The notes below the pieces were generated by a model, which worked only from the letters and a program-made list of their open reading frames with translations, did no database searches and was not told the DNA's origin. Shown piece after piece: positions 5,989 to 16,137 of a stretch of DNA of 64,000 nucleotides (position 1 is its first letter; each line of letters opens with the position of its first letter). The stretch is taken from NCBI GenBank assembly GCA_001767525.1, contig MELF01000048.1, forward strand, positions 1-64,000. The letters are read 5' to 3'. The DNA is from Acidobacteria bacterium RIFCSPLOWO2_12_FULL_68_19. GTDB lineage: Bacteria > Acidobacteriota > Vicinamibacteria > Vicinamibacterales > UBA2999. The position numbers and the translations under genes were made by a program.

Positions 5989-7428
5989 TCAGAACAAGCG
6001 AAACACCGCGGCCGCTATCAGCGTCGGCACGAGTGCGCCGAGCATCAGCCCCAGCGGAGAGACCGATCCACCGAAGAACCGGCTGAGGAGCGCCTGGCCT
6101 GCCGGATTCGGCGCGTTCGCAATGACCGTCAGGCCGCCGCCGACCACCGCGCCTTGCACGACCGCGAGCTTGAGTTCGTCGCCAAGATTCGGTACCAGGA
6201 CGGCCAGATACGTGATGAGCGCGTTGTCATTGAAGGCCGTGAGCAGCGTCGATCCGAGGAACAACGGCGCTTCAGCAAGGCTTCCCAGCACCGGCGCGAT
6301 CCACCACCCCTGCAGGCCGCCGTGAATCACCAGTCCGGCCAGGAAGAAGCCGACCAGGAGGGGCGTCTTCAACTCGATGCGGCTCTGATAGACCGCGGTC
6401 GCCCTCGCAAATCCCAAGAAGAACAAGAACCCTCCGAGAAACAGTGCGGGAAAGTGCGAGTTGAAGACGGTCCAGACGATGAAGGACACATGCGCGAACG
6501 TGACCCATACCGGCACCGGCAACAGTGCGGCGCCAGACGCGTCTTCGTCGGGCTGTTCGACATCGGCCACGGGCGCGCGCCCGGCCAGCGCCGTGAACTC
6601 CGTCCGGAACAGCAGGTAGTAGACCGCCGTGGAGATGGCAATGGCGGCAGCGGCTCGCCAGCCAAAGTGGCTCGCCATAAACAACGTGTCCCAGCCCCAG
6701 GATCGCGCCACCATCAGCACGGGAGGTGCGGCGAAATGCGTGAGCGTGCCCCCGATCGACACGTTCACGAAGAGGAGGCCCAGCGTCCCATATTTCAACT
6801 TCGCGCTGGGGAGCAAGTCGTAGAACTGGCGGGCCAACAGGAGCGCACAGATCGTCATGGCCGCCGGTTCGGTGATGAACGATCCGAACACGGGCCCAAT
6901 CGTCAGAATCGTCATCCACCATGCCGCTGGCGTCCCGCCGCCGGCATTGGCCACGCGTCGTAGTCCTGCCTCCGCGAAGACCACAATGGGTCGCGTTGAC
7001 GCCAGCGCCATGATCACCACCACGAACAGCGCTTCCGTGTAGTTGACCCTGCTGTTCAGGTAGTGGGCGGCCGTGTCCCACCCCGCGTACGCGGTCATCG
7101 CGATGGTCAGCACCACGGCCCAGAGTCCGAAGACGACTTCGACTTCCCCGAAGAAGTGCAGCAGCTCGGCGACGACACTGGGGGTCGTCGGGCGCCCCTT
7201 CGCGCGTGCGTCGTCGTCGTGTCGGTGTTGCACGCGGTGCGCCAGTGCCGTGAAGCGGGCGACCGCGAATGTGTGAAGAATGGCGAGCACGAAGATGCCG
7301 GTGGCGATCCCGTTGAACGGCTCGATCTCGACCCGTCCGATCAGATGACGGACGAGGCTGTCGCCGGCGGCCACCGGGTACTCCGTCAACGGCCGCGGCA
7401 ACTCGGCGATCGCGCCGGCGACATTCAT
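5989..7428 (-). CDS. Putative Na+/H+ antiporter (PF07399 type)
   Basis: Polytopic inner-membrane protein of 479 residues with roughly eleven or twelve hydrophobic helices, matching the length and pattern of the 'putative Na+/H+ antiporter' family. Features seen are a charged His-rich cytoplasmic loop (VQHRHDDDARAKG, about residues 66-78), a conserved-looking GSFITEPAAMTI segment and a C-terminal FNDNALITYLAVLVP segment containing polar residues inside helices. It would exchange Na+ for H+. It is divergent from the PDZ/antiporter/trehalose operon across about 200 bp, so the two units may share stress-responsive control. Activity is inferred from family membership only. Confidence 0.8.
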   Translation of the reverse strand: MNVAGAIAELPRPLTEYPVAAGDSLVRHLIGRVEIEPFNGIATGIFVLAILHTFAVARFTALAHRVQHRHDDDARAKGRPTTPSVVAELLHFFGEVEVVFGLWAVVLTIAMTAYAGWDTAAHYLNSRVNYTEALFVVVIMALASTRPIVVFAEAGLRRVANAGGGTPAAWWMTILTIGPVFGSFITEPAAMTICALLLARQFYDLLPSAKLKYGTLGLLFVNVSIGGTLTHFAAPPVLMVARSWGWDTLFMASHFGWRAAAAIAISTAVYYLLFRTEFTALAGRAPVADVEQPDEDASGAALLPVPVWVTFAHVSFIVWTVFNSHFPALFLGGFLFFLGFARATAVYQSRIELKTPLLVGFFLAGLVIHGGLQGWWIAPVLGSLAEAPLFLGSTLLTAFNDNALITYLAVLVPNLGDELKLAVVQGAVVGGGLTVIANAPNPAGQALLSRFFGGSVSPLGLMLGALVPTLIAAAVFRLF

Positions 7429-7626: not shown

Positions 7627-8916
7627 ATGGAGCCATCGAGCCCCTATCGACCTCGAGTATCACGGGAAACGCGGTTGCTGCTCACGGCCGGCGTCGTGGC
7701 CGTCGCCGCGCTGTGGCTCCTCGCTCGTATTCGATTCCAGGAACGTCCCGTTACGCCCAACCCGGTGCCGGCGCTTCTCAGTCAGCTGGCCAACAGACCG
7801 ACGTACGACGATCTCGCGGCAGAGATCGCGCAGCTCCAGGCTCGTGTGGAGCCCTCTCTTCTCGTGCTCGACGTGCCTTCGGCGTTCCCAGGCTCGCCGT
7901 CGGCGTCACATTGGCTCGGGGCGCTCAGGCTCCGTGACGACCTCGCGGTGACGCTGCTCCCGGCCGGGTCGCATCCAGAGCTGTGGAACGACAGGCGTGT
8001 CCTCGCCCGCGATCCGGCGTCCGGCTTGGTCGTGGTGCGCGTACCGAGCCAGGTGCCCGCACCTCCTGTGGTCCCCTGGACACCCCGCCGACTGGAGCAG
8101 CCGCGGTATCTCATCGCCAGCGACGTGTCCTCACAGAGCGTATCACTCCGCCCAGTCTTCGTGGGGTCGCTCGCTCCGATGGAGAGTCCGTTGTGGTCGG
8201 AGCCGATCTGGGCGGTGCCGGGGCGCAGCGACCTGGCGCCGGGCTCGTTCGTGTTCACGAACAGCGCGGAACTGGTAGGTCTGGTATTCGCGCACGATGC
8301 CGAGTCTGTCGTGGTGCCTGCCGCGACCGTGCTCGCGGAAGCGGATCGTCTGCTGAACACGCCGAGGGGACCCGTGGGGACGGTCGGCCTCCAGGTGCAA
8401 GCCCTGACCGCGGTAGTCGCGTCGGTGACCGGTGCTCCCGTCGGGGTGGTCGTCACCTGGGTTGAACAGGATGGCGCCGCTGCCGGCCAGCTGATGGTGG
8501 GCGACGTCATCGAAGCGATTGACGGTCGCGCGCTCGCGACTTCTCAGCATTGGGACGTTCGTCTGGCCCGTCTGCTCGCCGGCGAGATGCTGACGCTCCG
8601 CGTGCGCAGGCGCGGCGAAGTCCAGGAGGTGGTGTTGACTGCGGCCGCCGTTGCGTCGCCGCCCGTCAGCCGGGCGCTTGGCCTCACACTACGCGGGCGG
8701 ACGGGGATTGGCACTGACGTGGTCCGTGTCGAGCGGGCGTCCGCGGCGGATCGAGCCGGACTGGCGGCCGGTGACATCATCACGCTCGTCGCCGATGTCC
8801 ACGCGCCGACGCCAGCCCAGGTGACACGGTCCTTCGCCTCCGTTCGTGAGGGTCAGCGCGTGATGGTCGCCGTCACGCGGGGCGACGTGCACCTTGTGAC
8901 AACTTTGGAACGATGA
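7627..8916 (+). CDS. Membrane-anchored PDZ protein, HtrA/DegS-like pseudoprotease
   Basis: 429 residues: short cytoplasmic tail, one membrane helix (about 19-35), a periplasmic domain with trypsin-like spacing (about 55-250) and two PDZ domains (about 258-340 and 345-425; GVVVTWVEQDGAAAGQL and GIGTDVVRVERASAAD). The catalytic signature is missing. Where HtrA proteins have GNSGGP the sequence reads LAPGSFVFTNSAE, and no TNxHV histidine motif is seen, so it is probably a binding or sensor protein rather than a protease. The stop overlaps the ATG of the next gene by four bases, placing it first in an operon with two antiporter-like proteins and the trehalose synthase fusion. Confidence 0.75.
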   Translation: MEPSSPYRPRVSRETRLLLTAGVVAVAALWLLARIRFQERPVTPNPVPALLSQLANRPTYDDLAAEIAQLQARVEPSLLVLDVPSAFPGSPSASHWLGALRLRDDLAVTLLPAGSHPELWNDRRVLARDPASGLVVVRVPSQVPAPPVVPWTPRRLEQPRYLIASDVSSQSVSLRPVFVGSLAPMESPLWSEPIWAVPGRSDLAPGSFVFTNSAELVGLVFAHDAESVVVPAATVLAEADRLLNTPRGPVGTVGLQVQALTAVVASVTGAPVGVVVTWVEQDGAAAGQLMVGDVIEAIDGRALATSQHWDVRLARLLAGEMLTLRVRRRGEVQEVVLTAAAVASPPVSRALGLTLRGRTGIGTDVVRVERASAADRAGLAAGDIITLVADVHAPTPAQVTRSFASVREGQRVMVAVTRGDVHLVTTLER

Positions 8917-10088
8917 CCGCCCCTCCGGCCGGCGATCCCTGCGGCCTGCCTGACCCGTCTCTCGGCCTGCCCATCGACGACGCGCTCGGACAGGCCCAGG
9001 AGCCGGATGGGCGGCGGTCGCGCAGATGGCGCGTGTTGGGCTGGTCCGCGACCTCGGCTCCAGTGGCGCTCCTCCTCGTAGGTGGACTTGTGTTCGGTCC
9101 TCGGGGCCTCAGCCTGCTCTCCCCGGCCATGCTGTCGTTGCTCAATCCGGTGGTTCCCGTCGCCCTCGCGGCGCTGGGCGTACTTGTGGGACTGGGCGTG
9201 GGCGACCGTCGACCGGACGACCGGCGTGTGTTCGCCGCCGCCGGTCTCGATGCCGCCGTCACCATGCTCGTGGTCTCGGCCGGGATCGGGGTGATCGGAT
9301 TCGCCGCGATGTCTTCGATCGTCCGGCCCTTCTGGACGCTGGTCTTGGCCAGCGGCATCTGCGCCGCGACGTCCCTGACGTTGCCGACGGACAATCCCCT
9401 GGAACCTCGGACAACCGCCGTCCGCATTATCGAGCTCGGCGTCCTGCTTCCGATCGTGGCGGGTGCGCTCCTGCTCGCGTCGCTCCGCGCGGGCTCCTCC
9501 GTGGGAGCCGTGGCCCTGGTGGCGCAAGCGTCGGGCGTCACCCTGGCGCTGGCGGCCGCCGGATGGTTGCTACTGACGCGAGTTTCGTCTGAAACGGAAG
9601 AACGCGTCTTGGCCGTGTCGGCGCTCCTGCTCGTCGGCGGCGTCGCGGACGCCTTGTCCCTGTCCGCGCTGTTCGGTGGTCTGGTCGCTGGTGTCTTCTG
9701 GCGGTATGCAGGACGGCACCCGCGCGATACGATCAGTCGGGATGTACTCTTCGTGCAGCACCCCCTCCTCGTGCTCGTGCTGCTGGTGGCTGGGGCCCGT
9801 GTGGATCTCTCGCTCGCGTCACTCGGACTTGGGGCGGGCTATCTCGTGCTCCGTGTCGTTGGTCGGCTGGCCGGCGGCGCCGTGGCTGGGCGTGTCATCG
9901 GTGTGAACGCGCCGCGTGACCTGAGGCTCTCCCTCCTCCCGCCTGGCGTCTTCGGCGTAGCGTTTGCGCTCAACGCGGTCAGCGTCGTCGGCGCGGACGC
10001 GTCTATCCTACTCGCGGCTGTGGTGGCTGGCACGATCGGCTCCGAATTCGTCGCGCTCCTGCTGCCACCTCGGAGCGTCACCGAGTGA
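8913..10088 (+). CDS. CPA-type cation:proton antiporter-like membrane protein
   Basis: 391 residues. A Pro-rich, charged cytoplasmic N-terminus (about 1-45) is followed by ten or so hydrophobic helices with the Leu/Val/Gly-rich texture of Na+/H+ exchanger domains (PF00999). One acidic residue pair in a helix context is visible (SLTLPTDNPLEP), but the canonical two-Asp or Lys-Asp core of CPA2 transporters is not obvious. The protein could be a divergent antiporter or a partner subunit. It overlaps both neighbours by four bases (ATGA upstream, GTGA downstream), so expression with the following antiporter-OtsA fusion is almost certainly coupled. Confidence 0.65.
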   Translation: MTAPPAGDPCGLPDPSLGLPIDDALGQAQEPDGRRSRRWRVLGWSATSAPVALLLVGGLVFGPRGLSLLSPAMLSLLNPVVPVALAALGVLVGLGVGDRRPDDRRVFAAAGLDAAVTMLVVSAGIGVIGFAAMSSIVRPFWTLVLASGICAATSLTLPTDNPLEPRTTAVRIIELGVLLPIVAGALLLASLRAGSSVGAVALVAQASGVTLALAAAGWLLLTRVSSETEERVLAVSALLLVGGVADALSLSALFGGLVAGVFWRYAGRHPRDTISRDVLFVQHPLLVLVLLVAGARVDLSLASLGLGAGYLVLRVVGRLAGGAVAGRVIGVNAPRDLRLSLLPPGVFGVAFALNAVSVVGADASILLAAVVAGTIGSEFVALLLPPRSVTE

Positions 10089-12844
10089 GGCGCCTCCTGG
10101 CGCTCGCGCTGGCGATCGGCGCGATGGTCTGGGTGCGCCGTCTCGGCATCCAGGCGACGGCCGGTTCGGCCGCCGCGGCGCTGGCTCTGGGATTTGCCCT
10201 GATGGGCGCGTCCGTCATGGGCGACGCGCTGCGACGGTTCAAGGCCCCACGCCTCACTGGATATCTCCTCTTCGGCGTGATCGTCGGACCGTATCTCGGC
10301 AACTTGATCACGCAACCGATGGCCGTCCAGCTACAGGTCGTGACCGGGATCGCCACGACCCTGATTGCGCTGATCGCTGGCCTGACCCTGAGTGTGGAGC
10401 GCCTGGGATCCCGCCTCGGGGCGATCACACGCGTGACCGCCGCGACGCTGGTCGTGGCCATCGCCGGTCTATTCGCGGTGGGCTGGCTGGTGTGGCCGTG
10501 GCTGCCCATCGCCGCCGACGCTGTGGGAGTGCAACGGCTGGCCATGCTGGCCTTGCTGGTCGTGATGGTCGTCTCCTTCTCGCCGACGATGACCGCGGCG
10601 GTGGTCGCCGACTCGGGCGCACGCGGGCGGCTGAGCGAGACGGTGCTGACGATAGTCGTGCTGGCCGACCTCGTGATCCTGGTGCTGTTCTCCGTGTCGA
10701 TGCAGCTCGCGCGCGTGGTGTTCGACACCAGCGAAGGCCGTAGCGTCGAGGTGCTGGCCCAGCTCGGGTGGGAGATCGGTGGGGCCGTCGCGTTTGGCGT
10801 GCTCATCGGCGTCTTGTTCGCGCTCTACCTGCGCTACATCGGCCGAGAGGTCACGCTCGTCCTGCTCGCGGTGTGCGCCGTGCTCAGTCAGGTCGGCAGC
10901 ACGCAGCAGCTGGAGCCACTGCTGGCGGCCGTTGCCGCGGGCTTGGTCATCGAGAACTTGGCCGTCGCGCAGGGCGACACCCTTCGGGCCGCCGTACGCC
11001 GTGGCGCGCCACCGGTCCTGGTGGTCTTCTTCGTGGCGGTGGGCGCATCCCTTCGGCTCGACGCGCTGGCCACCATCGGGCTCAGCGCGCTCGCATTGTC
11101 AGGAGTCCGACTCGGATTCATCAGGCTTGGCGTTCGGGTAGGCGTGAAGCTGTCCGCGCTGCCCGAACCGGTTGGGCGGTACGCGTGGACGGGCCTGGTG
11201 TCGCAGGCTGGGATCACCCTGGGGTTCGCATCCCTGATCGCCACCGAATTTCCGGGGTGGGGCAGCCAGGTGCAGTTGTTGCTGGTCGCGTCGATCGCGA
11301 TTCACGAGCTTGTGGGACCGCTTCTGTTTCGCCGCGGGTTGGCTCTGGCCGGCGAACTCGATGCGCAGGTGCCGCGCCCCCTCGTGGTCGTGTCCAACCG
11401 CGAGCCGTACCTGCACAGCCAGGATGGGGCTGGCCGAATTGGCGTGAAAGCTGCGACGGGTGGTGTCGCCGTAGCGCTCGACGCCCTGATGCGCGAACGA
11501 GGCGGTGAGTGGATCGCGCACGGGGCCGGTCCCGCGGACCGCCTGGTGGTTGACGCGACCGACAAGGTGCGGGTCCCTCCCGAGAGCCCCTCGTACGTGC
11601 TTCGGCGTCTGTGGCTCGAGGAACCCACCTTCTCGGCCTACTACGGGGGCTTCGCGAACGAAGGCCTGTGGCCCCTGTGTCACGTGGTCGATGTCCGTCC
11701 GAAGTTTCGGAGCGAAGACTGGGCGGCCTATCAGGACGTCAACGCGCGGTTCGCCGCCGCCATCCACGCGGCGATCGCGGCGTCCGACGCGCCGGTGTTC
11801 ATCCAGGACTATCACCTGGCCCTCGTGGCGCCGGCGCTGCGGGCACTGCGGCCCGATGCCCGAACCGCCCTCTTCTGGCACATTCCGTGGCCCTATCCGG
11901 ATCGCCTCCGCATCTGCCCGTGGCGGAGAGAGCTGGTCGCGGGGTTGCTCGCCAACGACCTGATTGCTTTTCAGCTGGAACGCGACCGCCGCAACTTCCT
12001 GATGGCGGCTGAAGAAGAGCTGCACGCCGAAGTGGAGATCGAGGCATCGCGCGTTCGATTCGGCGGGCGCTCGACCACGGTCGTCGCGGTGCCGATCGGC
12101 GTGGACTACGACCGCATTCAAAGCTTCGCCGCCGACCCCTCGCTCCTACAGGAACAGCAGCGCCTGCGGGAACTGCTCGGCCTTCGCGCGGACATCATCG
12201 GGCTCGGCGTCGATCGGCTCGACTACACCAAGGGCATTCCGGAACGCCTCGACGCGCTCGATGCGCTCATGGCGCGGCGGCCGGATCTGCGCGGGAGGAT
12301 GACCTTCGTCCAGATTGGCGTCCCGTCGCGTTCGGACCTCGGGAGCTATGCGGCGATCGAGGCGAAGATTGGCCAGCGGATCACCAACCTCAACGCGCGG
12401 CACGCCGTGACGGGCGGTGCGCCGGTGGTGTCGTACTACACGACGCCACTGGGGGCGTTCAGCCTCGTGGCGCTGTACCGTCTCGCGCACTTCTGCATCG
12501 TCAGCTCGCTGCACGACGGGATGAACCTCGTCGCCAAGGAGTTCGTCGCCGCCCGGGACGATGAGCATGGTGTCCTGGTCCTCAGCGCGCTCGCGGGCGC
12601 CGCCCAGGAGCTCGAGGACGCGGTCATCATCAATCCCTACGACGTCGATGCGTTCGCGGCTGCCCTGGTACGCGCGATCGAGATGACAGAAGACGAGCAG
12701 GTGACGCGTATGCGGGCGATGCGGAAGGTGGTCGCTGGACGGAACGTGTTCAATTGGGCGTCCGACATTCTGGGGGGTCTCGAGAGTCTGTGGACCAAAC
12801 CGTTGCTCTATGCGGTTCGGGGGTGGGAAGAGACGTCGGTGTGA
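10085..12844 (+). CDS. Fusion: CPA2 cation/proton antiporter + trehalose-6-phosphate synthase
   Basis: One uninterrupted 919-residue frame. Residues 1 to about 420 form a Kef/NapA-like membrane domain with about 11-12 helices; a helix with SETVLTIVVLADLVIL carries Asp195 at the position typical of CPA2 transporters. From residue 431 a complete GT20 domain follows: VVVSNREPY at the start, GGVAVALDAL, YYGGFANEGLWPLC, the catalytic-region IQDYHL (574-578), phosphate/UDP-binding RLDYTKG (Arg711, Lys716) and DGMNLVAKEF (811-820). GT20 synthases transfer glucose from UDP-glucose to glucose-6-phosphate. OtsA is normally a free cytosolic protein of about 470 residues. The GTG start overlaps the upstream stop by four bases, and otsB follows about 700 bp later. 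Confidence 0.85.
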   Translation: MRRLLALALAIGAMVWVRRLGIQATAGSAAAALALGFALMGASVMGDALRRFKAPRLTGYLLFGVIVGPYLGNLITQPMAVQLQVVTGIATTLIALIAGLTLSVERLGSRLGAITRVTAATLVVAIAGLFAVGWLVWPWLPIAADAVGVQRLAMLALLVVMVVSFSPTMTAAVVADSGARGRLSETVLTIVVLADLVILVLFSVSMQLARVVFDTSEGRSVEVLAQLGWEIGGAVAFGVLIGVLFALYLRYIGREVTLVLLAVCAVLSQVGSTQQLEPLLAAVAAGLVIENLAVAQGDTLRAAVRRGAPPVLVVFFVAVGASLRLDALATIGLSALALSGVRLGFIRLGVRVGVKLSALPEPVGRYAWTGLVSQAGITLGFASLIATEFPGWGSQVQLLLVASIAIHELVGPLLFRRGLALAGELDAQVPRPLVVVSNREPYLHSQDGAGRIGVKAATGGVAVALDALMRERGGEWIAHGAGPADRLVVDATDKVRVPPESPSYVLRRLWLEEPTFSAYYGGFANEGLWPLCHVVDVRPKFRSEDWAAYQDVNARFAAAIHAAIAASDAPVFIQDYHLALVAPALRALRPDARTALFWHIPWPYPDRLRICPWRRELVAGLLANDLIAFQLERDRRNFLMAAEEELHAEVEIEASRVRFGGRSTTVVAVPIGVDYDRIQSFAADPSLLQEQQRLRELLGLRADIIGLGVDRLDYTKGIPERLDALDALMARRPDLRGRMTFVQIGVPSRSDLGSYAAIEAKIGQRITNLNARHAVTGGAPVVSYYTTPLGAFSLVALYRLAHFCIVSSLHDGMNLVAKEFVAARDDEHGVLVLSALAGAAQELEDAVIINPYDVDAFAAALVRAIEMTEDEQVTRMRAMRKVVAGRNVFNWASDILGGLESLWTKPLLYAVRGWEETSV

Positions 12845-13421
12845 GGTCCCATTCGGCGCTCACGACTGTAAGCGCAAGCAGTGCCAGCATCACGTGAAGG
12901 AAGGCGCCGCGCGGTGCCGCCTCTTGCACGACCGTCTCTACCGCAGAAGCGCGGCATCGCCACGCCACGCTGGTTCCAGCGACCCATGCCACAATGAGCA
13001 GGATCGGGTCGGCGCGGGAGATCGCCCCATCGCGCAGGACCAGGGCGCCGACTCCGAGAGCTGCGACGGTGAGGGCTGGAATCAGGAGCACTTCACGTCG
13101 CTCCACGCGCAGAGCGGAGTGGGCGACAACAGGGAACAGCCCAGGAGCCAGAGAGCCCTGAGTGAAGACGGAGCCGATCGAATCGCCCACGTTGATTTCA
13201 CCGTACCCAAGATGGGACGAGACGAGCGAGTTGATGACTTCGGGTATGTCCGTGCCAATCGCCACAAGGGTGATGCCGACGAGGAACGGCTGGACATGGA
13301 GCTTGTCTGCGACCGCAACCGCGTGGTGGAGGGCAAAGCGACCCGACCGCCTGACAGAACGACGTCGTGACCGCAAGGAAGAGCCTGCTGACAGGCGCCT
13401 CCTGAACCCTCGCCTGGGCAA
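12750..13421 (-). pseudogene. Half-length sodium/calcium exchanger (CaCA) remnant
   Basis: The frame contains one alpha-repeat of a Na+/Ca2+ antiporter: LVGITLVAIGTDIPEVINSL followed by GEINVGDSIGSVFTQGS and two further hydrophobic helices. CaCA proteins have two such repeats and about 300-360 residues. Here the second repeat is absent and the first helix is not in frame: a hydrophobic candidate (RLFLAVTTSFCQAV) lies in another frame around 13370, suggesting a frameshift. The last codons run backwards into the OtsA domain gene and look non-native. It is most likely a decayed gene covering about 12850-13420. Confidence 0.6.
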
Positions 13422-13534
13422 CGGAACGTCGGTTCATTGGTCCGCCATGTGCACGAGAAGCTTATCCGACCGTCGTGCGGGCTATGCCCAGGAAATCGCC
13501 GGAGCCACCCAGCCACGCCCGGAGAGACCGCGAC

Positions 13535-14299
13535 ATGAGCCGTACAGCCGATATTCTTGCGATGCGTCGACAACGCATCCTCCGGGCGTTCGCGTCGTCC
13601 AACGTTCTCCTGGCCATCGACTACGACGGCACGCTCGCGCCGATTGCGCCCACGCCGGATCAGGCGCGCATGCGAGTCCGCACACGCAGGCTGTTCACGC
13701 AGGTCGCGCACCGCTACCCATCCATTGCGATCTCCGGGCGGCCGCTCGATGACATCGCACGGCGACTGGTCGGGATTCCGATCAGGTCGGTGTTTGGCAA
13801 TTACGGCGGCGAGCCGTCGCCGCAGGGTAAACCACCCGTGCGCGTCGGCGCCTGGGTGACGCATCTGAGAGAACGGCTGTCGACGCTCTCCGGCGTCGTC
13901 GTCGAGGACAAGGGCTATTCCGTCACGATCCACTATCGTCGTGCGCGCAACAAGGACCGGGCGATTGCAGCTATTCACGATGCGGCACGCGCGCTTCCCG
14001 GCGCGAGAGTCCTCGGCGGCGTAGAGGCGGTGACGCTCCTGCCCCGGGAGGGACCGGACAAAGGGGTCGCCCTGCAGCGGGCACGGCGATTGCTACGGTG
14101 CGACACGGCCATCTACGTGGGCGATGACGACACGGACGAAGATGCGTTCGCGTCTGCTCACCCCGATCGCCTGCTCTCAATCCGCGTCGGACCTTCCCGA
14201 AAGTCCAGGGCGCGATACCACCTCCAACGGCAGGCGGATATCGACAGACTGCTGCAATCGCTGCTCACGCTGAGGCAGGGGACGTCGTCTTCGGCATAG
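13535..14299 (+). CDS. otsB: Trehalose-6-phosphate phosphatase
   Basis: HAD-superfamily hydrolase of 254 residues that removes phosphate from trehalose-6-phosphate, completing the pathway begun by the upstream GT20 fusion. All HAD elements are present: nucleophile motif DYDGTLAP (Asp29, Asp31), motif II ISGRPLDD, the phosphate-contact Lys in GPDKGVAL and the metal-binding VGDDDTDEDAF. The ATG at 13535 has GGAG ten bases upstream; an in-frame ATG at 13475 would add an Arg/Pro-rich stretch unlike the family. It lies in the same orientation as the fusion gene but is separated from it by the decayed exchanger, so it may have its own promoter. Confidence 0.9.
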   Translation: MSRTADILAMRRQRILRAFASSNVLLAIDYDGTLAPIAPTPDQARMRVRTRRLFTQVAHRYPSIAISGRPLDDIARRLVGIPIRSVFGNYGGEPSPQGKPPVRVGAWVTHLRERLSTLSGVVVEDKGYSVTIHYRRARNKDRAIAAIHDAARALPGARVLGGVEAVTLLPREGPDKGVALQRARRLLRCDTAIYVGDDDTDEDAFASAHPDRLLSIRVGPSRKSRARYHLQRQADIDRLLQSLLTLRQGTSSSA

Positions 14300-14325: not shown

Positions 14326-16137
14326 CTACGTCCATGCGCGGAAACGCGAGTCGCGCGCCTCCAGGAGCTCCCCGATGGTGATGGCCGCATGAATGAGGCC
14401 AACGTGCGTGTACGCCTGAGGGAAATTGCCGAGCAATTGCCCGGTCTTCGGGTCGATGTCCTCGGAGAAGAGACCAAGCGGATTCGCGTAAGCGAGCAGC
14501 CGATTGAACAATGCCACCGCCTGCTCCAGTTCACCCATCATCGCGAGGGCCTCGACCCACCAGAACGAGCACACCGAGAACGCGCTGGTTGTCTCGCCGA
14601 AATCATCGGTGTGCCGGTACCGCAGCATCAGGCCGCCTTCAACGAGTTCCCGTTCATACGCCCGGACGGTCGAGACAAAGCGTGGGTCGCGCGCGTCAAT
14701 GATGCCGAACGTGGGCAGCAGCAGGAGCGAGGCGTCCGGGTGCTCGCCATGAAGCGCCTGCGTGAAGAATCCGAGCTTGTGGTTGTACGCAGCGTCGAGA
14801 ATCTCTCTCTGTTGCTGTTCCGCCCAGCGATCCCAGGCGTGGGCGCGGTCCGTTCGTCCCCGGAGCGTGGCCAGCCGCGCCCCGCGGTGCGCGGCCACCC
14901 AGCAGAGCACTTTGGAGAACGTGTAGGGTCCCAGGCGTGTTCTGAACTCCCACGGCCCCGTATCGTCGGAGGGCGCCACCGCGATGGCATCGTCAACGAG
15001 GCGTTCAACAAGCCCGAACACATCGTCGCCGTCCTCGACCACCACCCTCACATCGGTGAACAGCGTTTCCAGGCAGAGCACCATCTCGCCCATCAAGTCA
15101 TGCTGTTCTTGCAGGTACGCAGCGTTCCCGATGCGGACCGGGCGCCCTCCGGCGAAGCCGGTCAAGTGGTCCAGGTGCTGCTCCGGCAGATCCCGCTCGC
15201 CACCGATCCCGTAGACGGGTTGCAGCCGGCCCTGCTCCGCCACGGTGCGGAGAAACCTGACGAAGGCTTCACCCTCGGCCAGATGGCTGAGACGCCTCAG
15301 TGCTTCCACGACGAACGCCGCATCTCGAAGCCAACAGTACCGATAGTCCCACGTGCGTTGGGTGCCGACGGCCTCGGTGATACTCGTCGTCGCCGCCGCG
15401 ATGATGGCGCCCGTTTCATCGAAGGTGTGCAGCTTCAAACACAGCGCTGACCGTAAGACCTCCCGCTCCGCGAAGGACGGAAGCGCGCATGTCTTGGCCC
15501 AGGCCCGCCATCCGGCAATGGTCTGGTCCAGCACCTGTCTGACCGCCGAGATGGAATCGAGCGCAGTGGGCGTCTCGCAGCTCAAGATGAAGAAGCGGGG
15601 TTCGTCAACGCGAATCGACAGGCCGCTCAGCAGAAACGGAGCGGGCACGTTACTGCGCAGGCAAAGCCGGCTGGTGCGGGCCAGCACGTCGAGGCCGTGG
15701 GCGACCTCCACGACTTCGGGAACGACCCGGGCATAGTCAGGACGGGGGTCGAAACGGACACGGACGTGTGCGCACCCCTCACGCGGCAGCAGGAGCCGGT
15801 GGATCTCGGCCGGCGCCTCGACCGAGGCGCCGGCCGGAACCCGGGGAGCGTAGTCGAAGACATCAAAGATGCCGTCCGATGCCGTCACACGCGTCCGGAG
15901 GACGTTCGTGTTGGCGACATAGGTCATCTCCATCCGCGCTCCGGCGTCGGCCGGCTCGAAACCGAACGAGCCGCCCCGATCGGGGTCGAGGAGGCTCGCA
16001 AACACCGACGGGCTGTCGAAGCGCGGCAGACAGAGCCACTCGATACGCGCGGTCGGGGCAATCAATGCCAGGACCCGGCCATTGCCGATCGCGCCGTGAT
16101 TGAGCGGTGGGATCGTGTTCTCCATTGAGCCAATCAT
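14326..16137 (-). CDS. GH15-family glucoamylase/trehalase-like glycoside hydrolase
   Basis: Cytosolic (alpha/alpha)6-barrel hydrolase of about 600 residues. The N-terminal beta-sandwich domain (1-220, starting MENTIPPLNHGAIGNGRV) carries the IEWLCLPRFDSPSVFASLLD motif of bacterial GH15 enzymes. The barrel has YRYCWLRDAAFVVEAL and the region with the likely catalytic acid (GPWEFRTRLGPYTFSKVLCW). The Glu in FSEDIDPKTGQLLGNFPQAYTH is a candidate base. Family members hydrolyse alpha-glucans, maltose or trehalose. Convergence with otsB, with 26 bases between stops, argues for trehalose turnover, but substrate cannot be read from sequence. ATGs at 16137 and 16125 are both possible. Confidence 0.8.
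   Translation of the reverse strand: MIGSMENTIPPLNHGAIGNGRVLALIAPTARIEWLCLPRFDSPSVFASLLDPDRGGSFGFEPADAGARMEMTYVANTNVLRTRVTASDGIFDVFDYAPRVPAGASVEAPAEIHRLLLPREGCAHVRVRFDPRPDYARVVPEVVEVAHGLDVLARTSRLCLRSNVPAPFLLSGLSIRVDEPRFFILSCETPTALDSISAVRQVLDQTIAGWRAWAKTCALPSFAEREVLRSALCLKLHTFDETGAIIAAATTSITEAVGTQRTWDYRYCWLRDAAFVVEALRRLSHLAEGEAFVRFLRTVAEQGRLQPVYGIGGERDLPEQHLDHLTGFAGGRPVRIGNAAYLQEQHDLMGEMVLCLETLFTDVRVVVEDGDDVFGLVERLVDDAIAVAPSDDTGPWEFRTRLGPYTFSKVLCWVAAHRGARLATLRGRTDRAHAWDRWAEQQQREILDAAYNHKLGFFTQALHGEHPDASLLLLPTFGIIDARDPRFVSTVRAYERELVEGGLMLRYRHTDDFGETTSAFSVCSFWWVEALAMMGELEQAVALFNRLLAYANPLGLFSEDIDPKTGQLLGNFPQAYTHVGLIHAAITIGELLEARDSRFRAWT

Follow-up and report, generated by a model that had tools for sequence, protein, structure and literature searches.

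The bacterial response to osmotic stress consists of ion movement first and the synthesis of compatible solutes second. To our knowledge, there are few examples in which it is understood, at the level of the enzyme, how solute synthesis reads this ion movement; one is the activation of GgpS by salt. The cytosolic tails of the exchangers plant SOS1 and sea urchin SLC9C1 have a sensory or autoinhibitory role and are not biosynthetic enzymes. The exchanger KefC carries at its C-terminus an RCK domain, which inhibits transport through direct contact (PMC11150392), and GgpS (glucosylglycerol-phosphate synthase, of the GT20 family) is activated directly by KCl/NaCl (PMC4390839). Here, we describe a gene of Acidobacteria bacterium RIFCSPLOWO2_12_FULL_68_19 (assembly GCA_001767525.1), in which a CPA-type exchanger is fused to a GT20 domain predicted to be a trehalose-6-phosphate (T6P) synthase. 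The gene is located at positions 10085–12844 (+ strand) of the window, by which we mean the whole stretch of 64,000 nucleotides that was analyzed (positions 1–64,000 of the forward strand of contig MELF01000048.1).

The fused gene forms a single open reading frame (ORF), which begins with a GTG start codon and encodes 919 aa in a frame without interruption. In a Pfam search, residues 48–388 match PF00999 (70.7 bits, cut-off 26.2) and residues 433–897 match PF00982 (363.8 bits, cut-off 32.5), the latter over positions 3–469 of the 473 of the profile, i.e., its full length. The exchanger module comprises residues 1–421 (positions 10085–11347), with a complete CPA fold over residues 27–421, and is separated by a linker of 11 residues (422–432; 11348–11380) from a complete GT20 domain (residues 433–903; 11381–12793). 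In an AlphaFold model of the fusion, which is of moderate confidence (mean pLDDT 75.6, pTM 0.53) and in which the relative position of the domains is unreliable, the last transmembrane helix extends to approximately residue 421 and the first strand of the GT-B domain starts at residue 433 (nucleotide 11381). A low-confidence coil (residues 426–430) lies inside the linker, at the position where the unfused exchangers discussed below end. A preliminary description of this DNA had placed a complete antiporter and a complete GT20 domain in one frame of 919 codons, with a joint at about 11330–11400, and both the domains and the joint are found as it described them.

The fusion is not confined to this genome, contrary to the absence from all related genomes that the preliminary description had named as a refutation. 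Among 59 relatives searched, 17 genomes, one of them that of the window, contain the fusion at full length (50–100% identity). An independent scan that covered 84,980 species genomes yielded 17 fused loci, nearly all labeled Acidobacteria or Vicinamibacteria. In a sample of the class (149 genomes) 22 full-length fusions and one nearly full-length fusion were observed, all inside the order of the window, and in a sample of the phylum (297 genomes) no fusion was found outside this order of Acidobacteriota. After removal of duplicates, 27 full-length fused genes from independent assemblies were compared. These span several families of the order, and the fusion is retained across deep divergence, down to 48–51% identity. 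In all of them the GT20 tail follows the last membrane helix, as expected from the preliminary description, which put solute synthesis directly on an ion transporter, and the joint (residues 416–440, LFRxGLxxAGEL...RPLVVVSNREPY) is open, with neither a stop nor a frameshift between the domains. We conclude that the exchanger-GT20 fusion is real and conserved, and that it probably is a bona fide bifunctional membrane protein; its architecture and conservation were established by computation, and both activities are predicted. As the preliminary description had supposed, we could not find a published description of this architecture in the open-access literature, and the order-specific fusion of an exchanger to a T6P synthase is apparently undescribed there. 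Separate translation of the GT20 domain from an internal start was considered and rejected: in-frame GTG codons occur at the joint, none of them conserved, ribosome-binding-like motifs are scattered, and the joint of the 27 genes has no internal start that is both conserved and combined with a ribosome-binding site. A 71% identical fusion is also present in a metagenome-assembled genome labeled Acidimicrobiia (Actinomycetota; L031, VFYY01000096.1); it is nested among Acidobacteriota sequences and is likely a mislabeled or contaminated bin.

The exchanger module is predicted to contain 14 membrane helices, two of which are discontinuous (breaks at residues 164–166 and 372–376). By sequence profile, solved structures gave a weak N-terminal match to NhaP, and fold comparison was needed to place the module; this revealed a NapA-like fold, with Z-scores of 36.0 against SOS1 and 34.0 against NHA2. 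The predicted ion-binding aspartate, Asp195 (codon at 10667–10669, + strand), lies on the helix that follows the first broken one and aligns with D156 of E. coli KefC (D157 of NapA). None of the 23 fusions of the main clade varies at Asp195, at R342 or in the SP and QAG motifs of the two broken helices, and 17 of 19 unfused exchangers have the same residues; R342 is four residues off KefC K307 in the alignment, so that its equivalence is uncertain. Cation/proton antiport is a predicted activity of this half. The alternate loops of the exchanger contain 18 versus 4 lysine and arginine residues, and by this positive-inside count the C-terminus and the GT20 domain are placed in the cytosol; both termini of the module are predicted to be cytosolic. 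No TrkA match was found in the fusion in the Pfam search, the GT20 domain occupying that C-terminal place, whereas flavobacterial relatives of the exchanger half (L042/L043) have TrkA/RCK domains at the same site.

The GT20 half has the features of an active enzyme. Residues that bind the donor and acceptor in the OtsA proteins of Mycolicibacterium thermoresistibile and E. coli were the source for the mapping of the active site (PMC6879718, PMC3441724). All 12 residues that were checked (R439, G460, Y520, W529, D575, H577, H599, R711, K716, R749, D811, and E819) are present in the window protein, and neither the other fused proteins nor 21 unfused relatives deviate at any of them. Some of these, including W529, were added to the list from what we take to be their role in E. 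coli OtsA. The acceptor residues for glucose-6-phosphate (G6P) are all conserved except Q146, which is a histidine here and likewise in E. coli OtsA. In the fold comparison, the ternary complex of M. thermoresistibile OtsA (5jio) was the top match among OtsA structures (Z 39.3).

The genetic context is consistent with synthesis of trehalose. A gene for T6P phosphatase, otsB, is located downstream at 13475–14299 (+ strand; TIGR00685, 93.1 bits, cut-off 68.05), and in many relatives it directly follows the fusion or overlaps its end. In the genome of the window (4.2 Mb, rated 100% complete) the fusion is the sole GT20 gene and this otsB the sole OtsB (PF02358 genome search), and models for TreS and TreZ gave no match. 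On this basis the fusion appears to carry the only T6P synthase of the cell, with the product predicted from the active-site residues and the OtsB neighbor.

Two genes precede the fusion in a conserved operon. The first (7627–8916, + strand) encodes an HtrA-like protein with two PDZ domains, and overlaps the second gene by 4 bp (ATGA). When aligned to E. coli DegQ and DegS, this protein and its relatives lack the His/Asp/Ser triad; judged from its sequence and gene order, it is a conserved pseudoprotease of the periplasmic type that is tied to the exchanger operon. At the loci of the family designated f10, detectable similarity to it is limited to the protease-like half. The second gene (8913–10088, + strand), which overlaps the start of the fusion by 4 bp (GTGA), is conserved upstream of both fused and unfused exchangers, and its product matches neither a Pfam nor an NCBIfam model. 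A structural model of this product (mean pLDDT 76) matches NapA, PaNhaP, SOS1, and KefC, and its profile shows a distant, collinear similarity to the profile of the exchanger half (hhalign, E 0.00035, probability only 37%). No invariant ion-binding aspartate is present in the alignment of its family. The protein is probably a distant paralog with the exchanger fold, and is a candidate dimer partner of the exchanger half of the fusion. Two tandem exchanger-like genes at another locus (L094, 3515–6297, in G098), with 25% and 32% identity to the exchanger half of the window, are possibly an older form of such a paired arrangement.

Other genes surround the operon. A putative Na+/H+ antiporter (5989–7428, − strand; PF07399, 562 bits) adjoins it on the opposite strand. 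Between the fusion and otsB, an antisense ORF at 12750–13421 (− strand) overlaps the 3′ end of the fusion and encodes a Na/Ca exchanger-like protein of 223 aa with one PF01699 domain, which looks truncated and has no counterpart in the related loci that were read. Beyond otsB follows a gene for a GH15 family protein with a trehalase-like N-terminal domain (14326–16137, − strand; PF00723, PF19291). At two related loci (L053/L036) a divergent OtsA-OtsB two-domain protein is encoded directly beside the fusion, downstream and on the opposite strand; it has Asn for the equivalent of G460 and Val for that of Y520, and is possibly a non-catalytic GT20 protein.

Both halves also occur unfused. Exchanger orthologs that are approximately 50% identical to the exchanger half are present in the same order and class, also with the HtrA-like and exchanger-fold genes upstream, and end in a short tail soon after the last helix (after 'LFRxALxRAGEV'), without a GT20 domain. 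Two genomes (G040, G052) each contain the fused gene together with an unfused exchanger paralog. Frames of 780–960 aa, considered as possible fusions of the exchanger to other partners, were rejected as such: the additional length stems from a stretch free of stops ahead of the exchanger, and their C-termini end shortly past the last helix. The unfused sisters of the GT20 half (62–68% identical) belong to different families of the order and lie apart from the exchanger operon; their neighbors (an aminotransferase, menaquinone genes, and unknowns) give no functional clue. In the loci that were read, the exchanger operon never adjoins an unfused GT20 gene of this clade, and a simple read-through into a pre-existing neighbor is therefore not visible. 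Fission of an ancestral fusion was rejected as the source of the solo GT20 genes, upstream of which no remnant of the last membrane helix was found, though the trees do not exclude it. Trees of each half separate the main fused clade from the f10 clade, with two label changes each, and a single fused clade is not rejected (approximately unbiased (AU) p 0.30 for the GT20 half and 0.27 for the exchanger half); both trees prefer the two changes, and the fusion may have arisen either once or twice.

The f10 fusions differ from the others in their membrane half. One of the five (L075) keeps the aspartate. In the other four, which belong to three genera, the position of Asp195 is occupied by Glu, Gln, Gln, and Gln, and Thr replaces the Gln of QAG, so that the SQAG motif is changed as well; in these four the 12 GT20 residues are all intact. 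In the trees, the f10 branches are also longer for the exchanger half than for the GT20 half. As the ion-binding residue is lost and the enzyme is intact, transport itself cannot be the point, at least there. The decayed function is always transport and never the enzyme, which disfavors the GT20 domain as a mere regulatory appendix of the exchanger. These sequences favor a reading in which the enzyme is the output that is kept, and the membrane half serves as an exchanger plus tether or as a sensor, and at least in f10 as a tether or sensor.

We propose, with moderate confidence, that the gene encodes a CPA2-like exchanger with a cytosolic T6P synthase that acts in osmotic or salt adaptation, and that the state of the exchanger modulates the synthase. 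The N-terminal half would be an elevator-type cation/proton exchanger, probably paired with the co-encoded exchanger-fold protein, and the PDZ pseudoprotease would be located on the periplasmic side. The synthase would occupy the position of the RCK-type regulatory domain of related exchangers, and may take over the contact site of that domain and be tied in this way to the state of the exchanger. T6P would be made at the membrane and then dephosphorylated by the neighboring OtsB. Na+ or K+ would then be exchanged for H+, and the compatible solute that replaces these ions synthesized, in a fixed ratio and in one place, with the conformational or local ion state of the exchanger most likely modulating the synthase. 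We hypothesize that ion movement and trehalose synthesis are coupled in this manner, and the gating of trehalose production by ion flux or turgor, as put forward in the preliminary description, is plausible. As GgpS is switched on directly by KCl/NaCl, ion control of the synthase in the window is plausible as well.

Several observations weigh against this proposal and bear on its alternatives. The model of the fusion yields no domain interface. The K+-coordinating residues S125, T127, and Q155 of KefC are not conserved (F165, P167, and A194 in the window protein, giving an AD and not a QD motif), and the transported ion therefore cannot be named. In four of five f10 fusions the ion-binding aspartate is lost, so that the architecture does not depend on transport in every case; of the earlier interpretation, the architecture, the completeness of the domains and the enzyme on the exchanger stand, and a role for transport does not extend to these f10 fusions. 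This makes it a serious alternative, though in our view a rather unlikely one for the fusion as a whole, that the exchanger-fold half is a receptor-like ion or osmotic sensor or an anchor for the synthase (a 'transceptor'), with transport dispensable or secondary. The substitutions at Asp195 and in SQAG next to an intact enzyme, and the longer branches of the exchanger half, suggest sensing or tethering over transport-driven gating in f10. In the window's clade, however, the checked exchanger residues are invariant in 23 sequences, arguing that transport is still selected there, and L075 within f10 keeps its aspartate. Tentatively, the fusion may also be a membrane receptor-enzyme derived from an ion exchanger, which senses the cytosolic or transmembrane cation/proton state, gates the T6P synthase and has given up transport in one family; if true, the synthesis of a compatible solute would be under post-translational control at the membrane.

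The fusion is also patchy in its order and absent from many genera of the window's own family, a further point against the proposal, and because of this patchy presence it is an accessory trait, if a long-lived one. The patchiness, the short and variable linker and the presence of both halves unfused in sister lineages would fit a neutral or convenience fusion of two osmoadaptation genes, with independent halves and equal expression as its sole effect. We regard this as unlikely, as the fusion has been kept through deep divergence, and neither a fission relic in the unfused GT20 genes nor an unfused GT20 gene of the clade beside the exchanger operon was seen in the loci read. The identity of the product is likewise to be weighed: the GT20 domain scores below the OtsA equivalog cut-off (TIGR02400, 408.5 versus 564.85), so that the acceptor is not certain, and the W-x-G-W of E. 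coli OtsA is W-I-A-H. Another phosphorylated glucoside, e.g., glucosylglycerol-phosphate, would be compatible with these two observations, yet it is quite improbable given that the score with the OtsA model exceeds that with the glucosylglycerol-phosphate synthase model (TIGR02398, 275.9, cut-off 569), that the G6P acceptor residues are conserved apart from the histidine shared with E. coli OtsA, and that a T6P phosphatase above its cut-off is encoded downstream, in many relatives directly beside the fusion. Finally, long chance frames do arise in GC-rich DNA, and in several relatives open frames reach far upstream of the gene. Both domains are nevertheless homologous and in the same frame, joint included, across 27 distinct genes from separate assemblies, which excludes an assembly or frameshift artifact and leaves a chance open frame a negligible explanation.

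With the exchanger-synthase reading, both steps of the osmotic response would reside on one polypeptide, apparently the only T6P synthase of its genome. The fusion suggests a link between stress-sugar production and the transport or sensing of ions at the membrane, and the natural variants that lack the ion site and retain the enzyme provide ready-made test pairs.

The protein of the window shares with OtsA of E. coli and M. thermoresistibile the GT-B fold, the checked donor, acceptor and catalytic residues and an OtsB encoded nearby. It differs in that its GT20 domain forms the cytosolic tail of an exchanger in the membrane, has the altered tryptophan motif and does not reach the cut-off of the OtsA equivalog model. 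GgpS is likewise a GT20 enzyme of compatible-solute synthesis (PMC4390839), but is not fused to a transporter and uses glycerol-3-phosphate as the acceptor, and the window domain remains far below the cut-off of its model. With exchangers of the KefC/NapA type (CPA2) it has in common the NapA-like fold, the two broken helices, Asp195 as the counterpart of KefC D156 and a C-terminal cytosolic domain (PMC11150392); it differs in that it ends in GT20 and not in an RCK domain, has an AD motif where these have QD or DD, and does not conserve the K+-coordinating residues of KefC. The unfused orthologs (e.g., L045, L088) share approximately 50% identity and the operon with the HtrA-like pseudoprotease and the second exchanger-fold protein, but have a short tail without GT20. 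Plant SOS1 and sea urchin SLC9C1 share the transmembrane fold followed by a cytosolic domain, which in the protein described here is a predicted T6P synthase.

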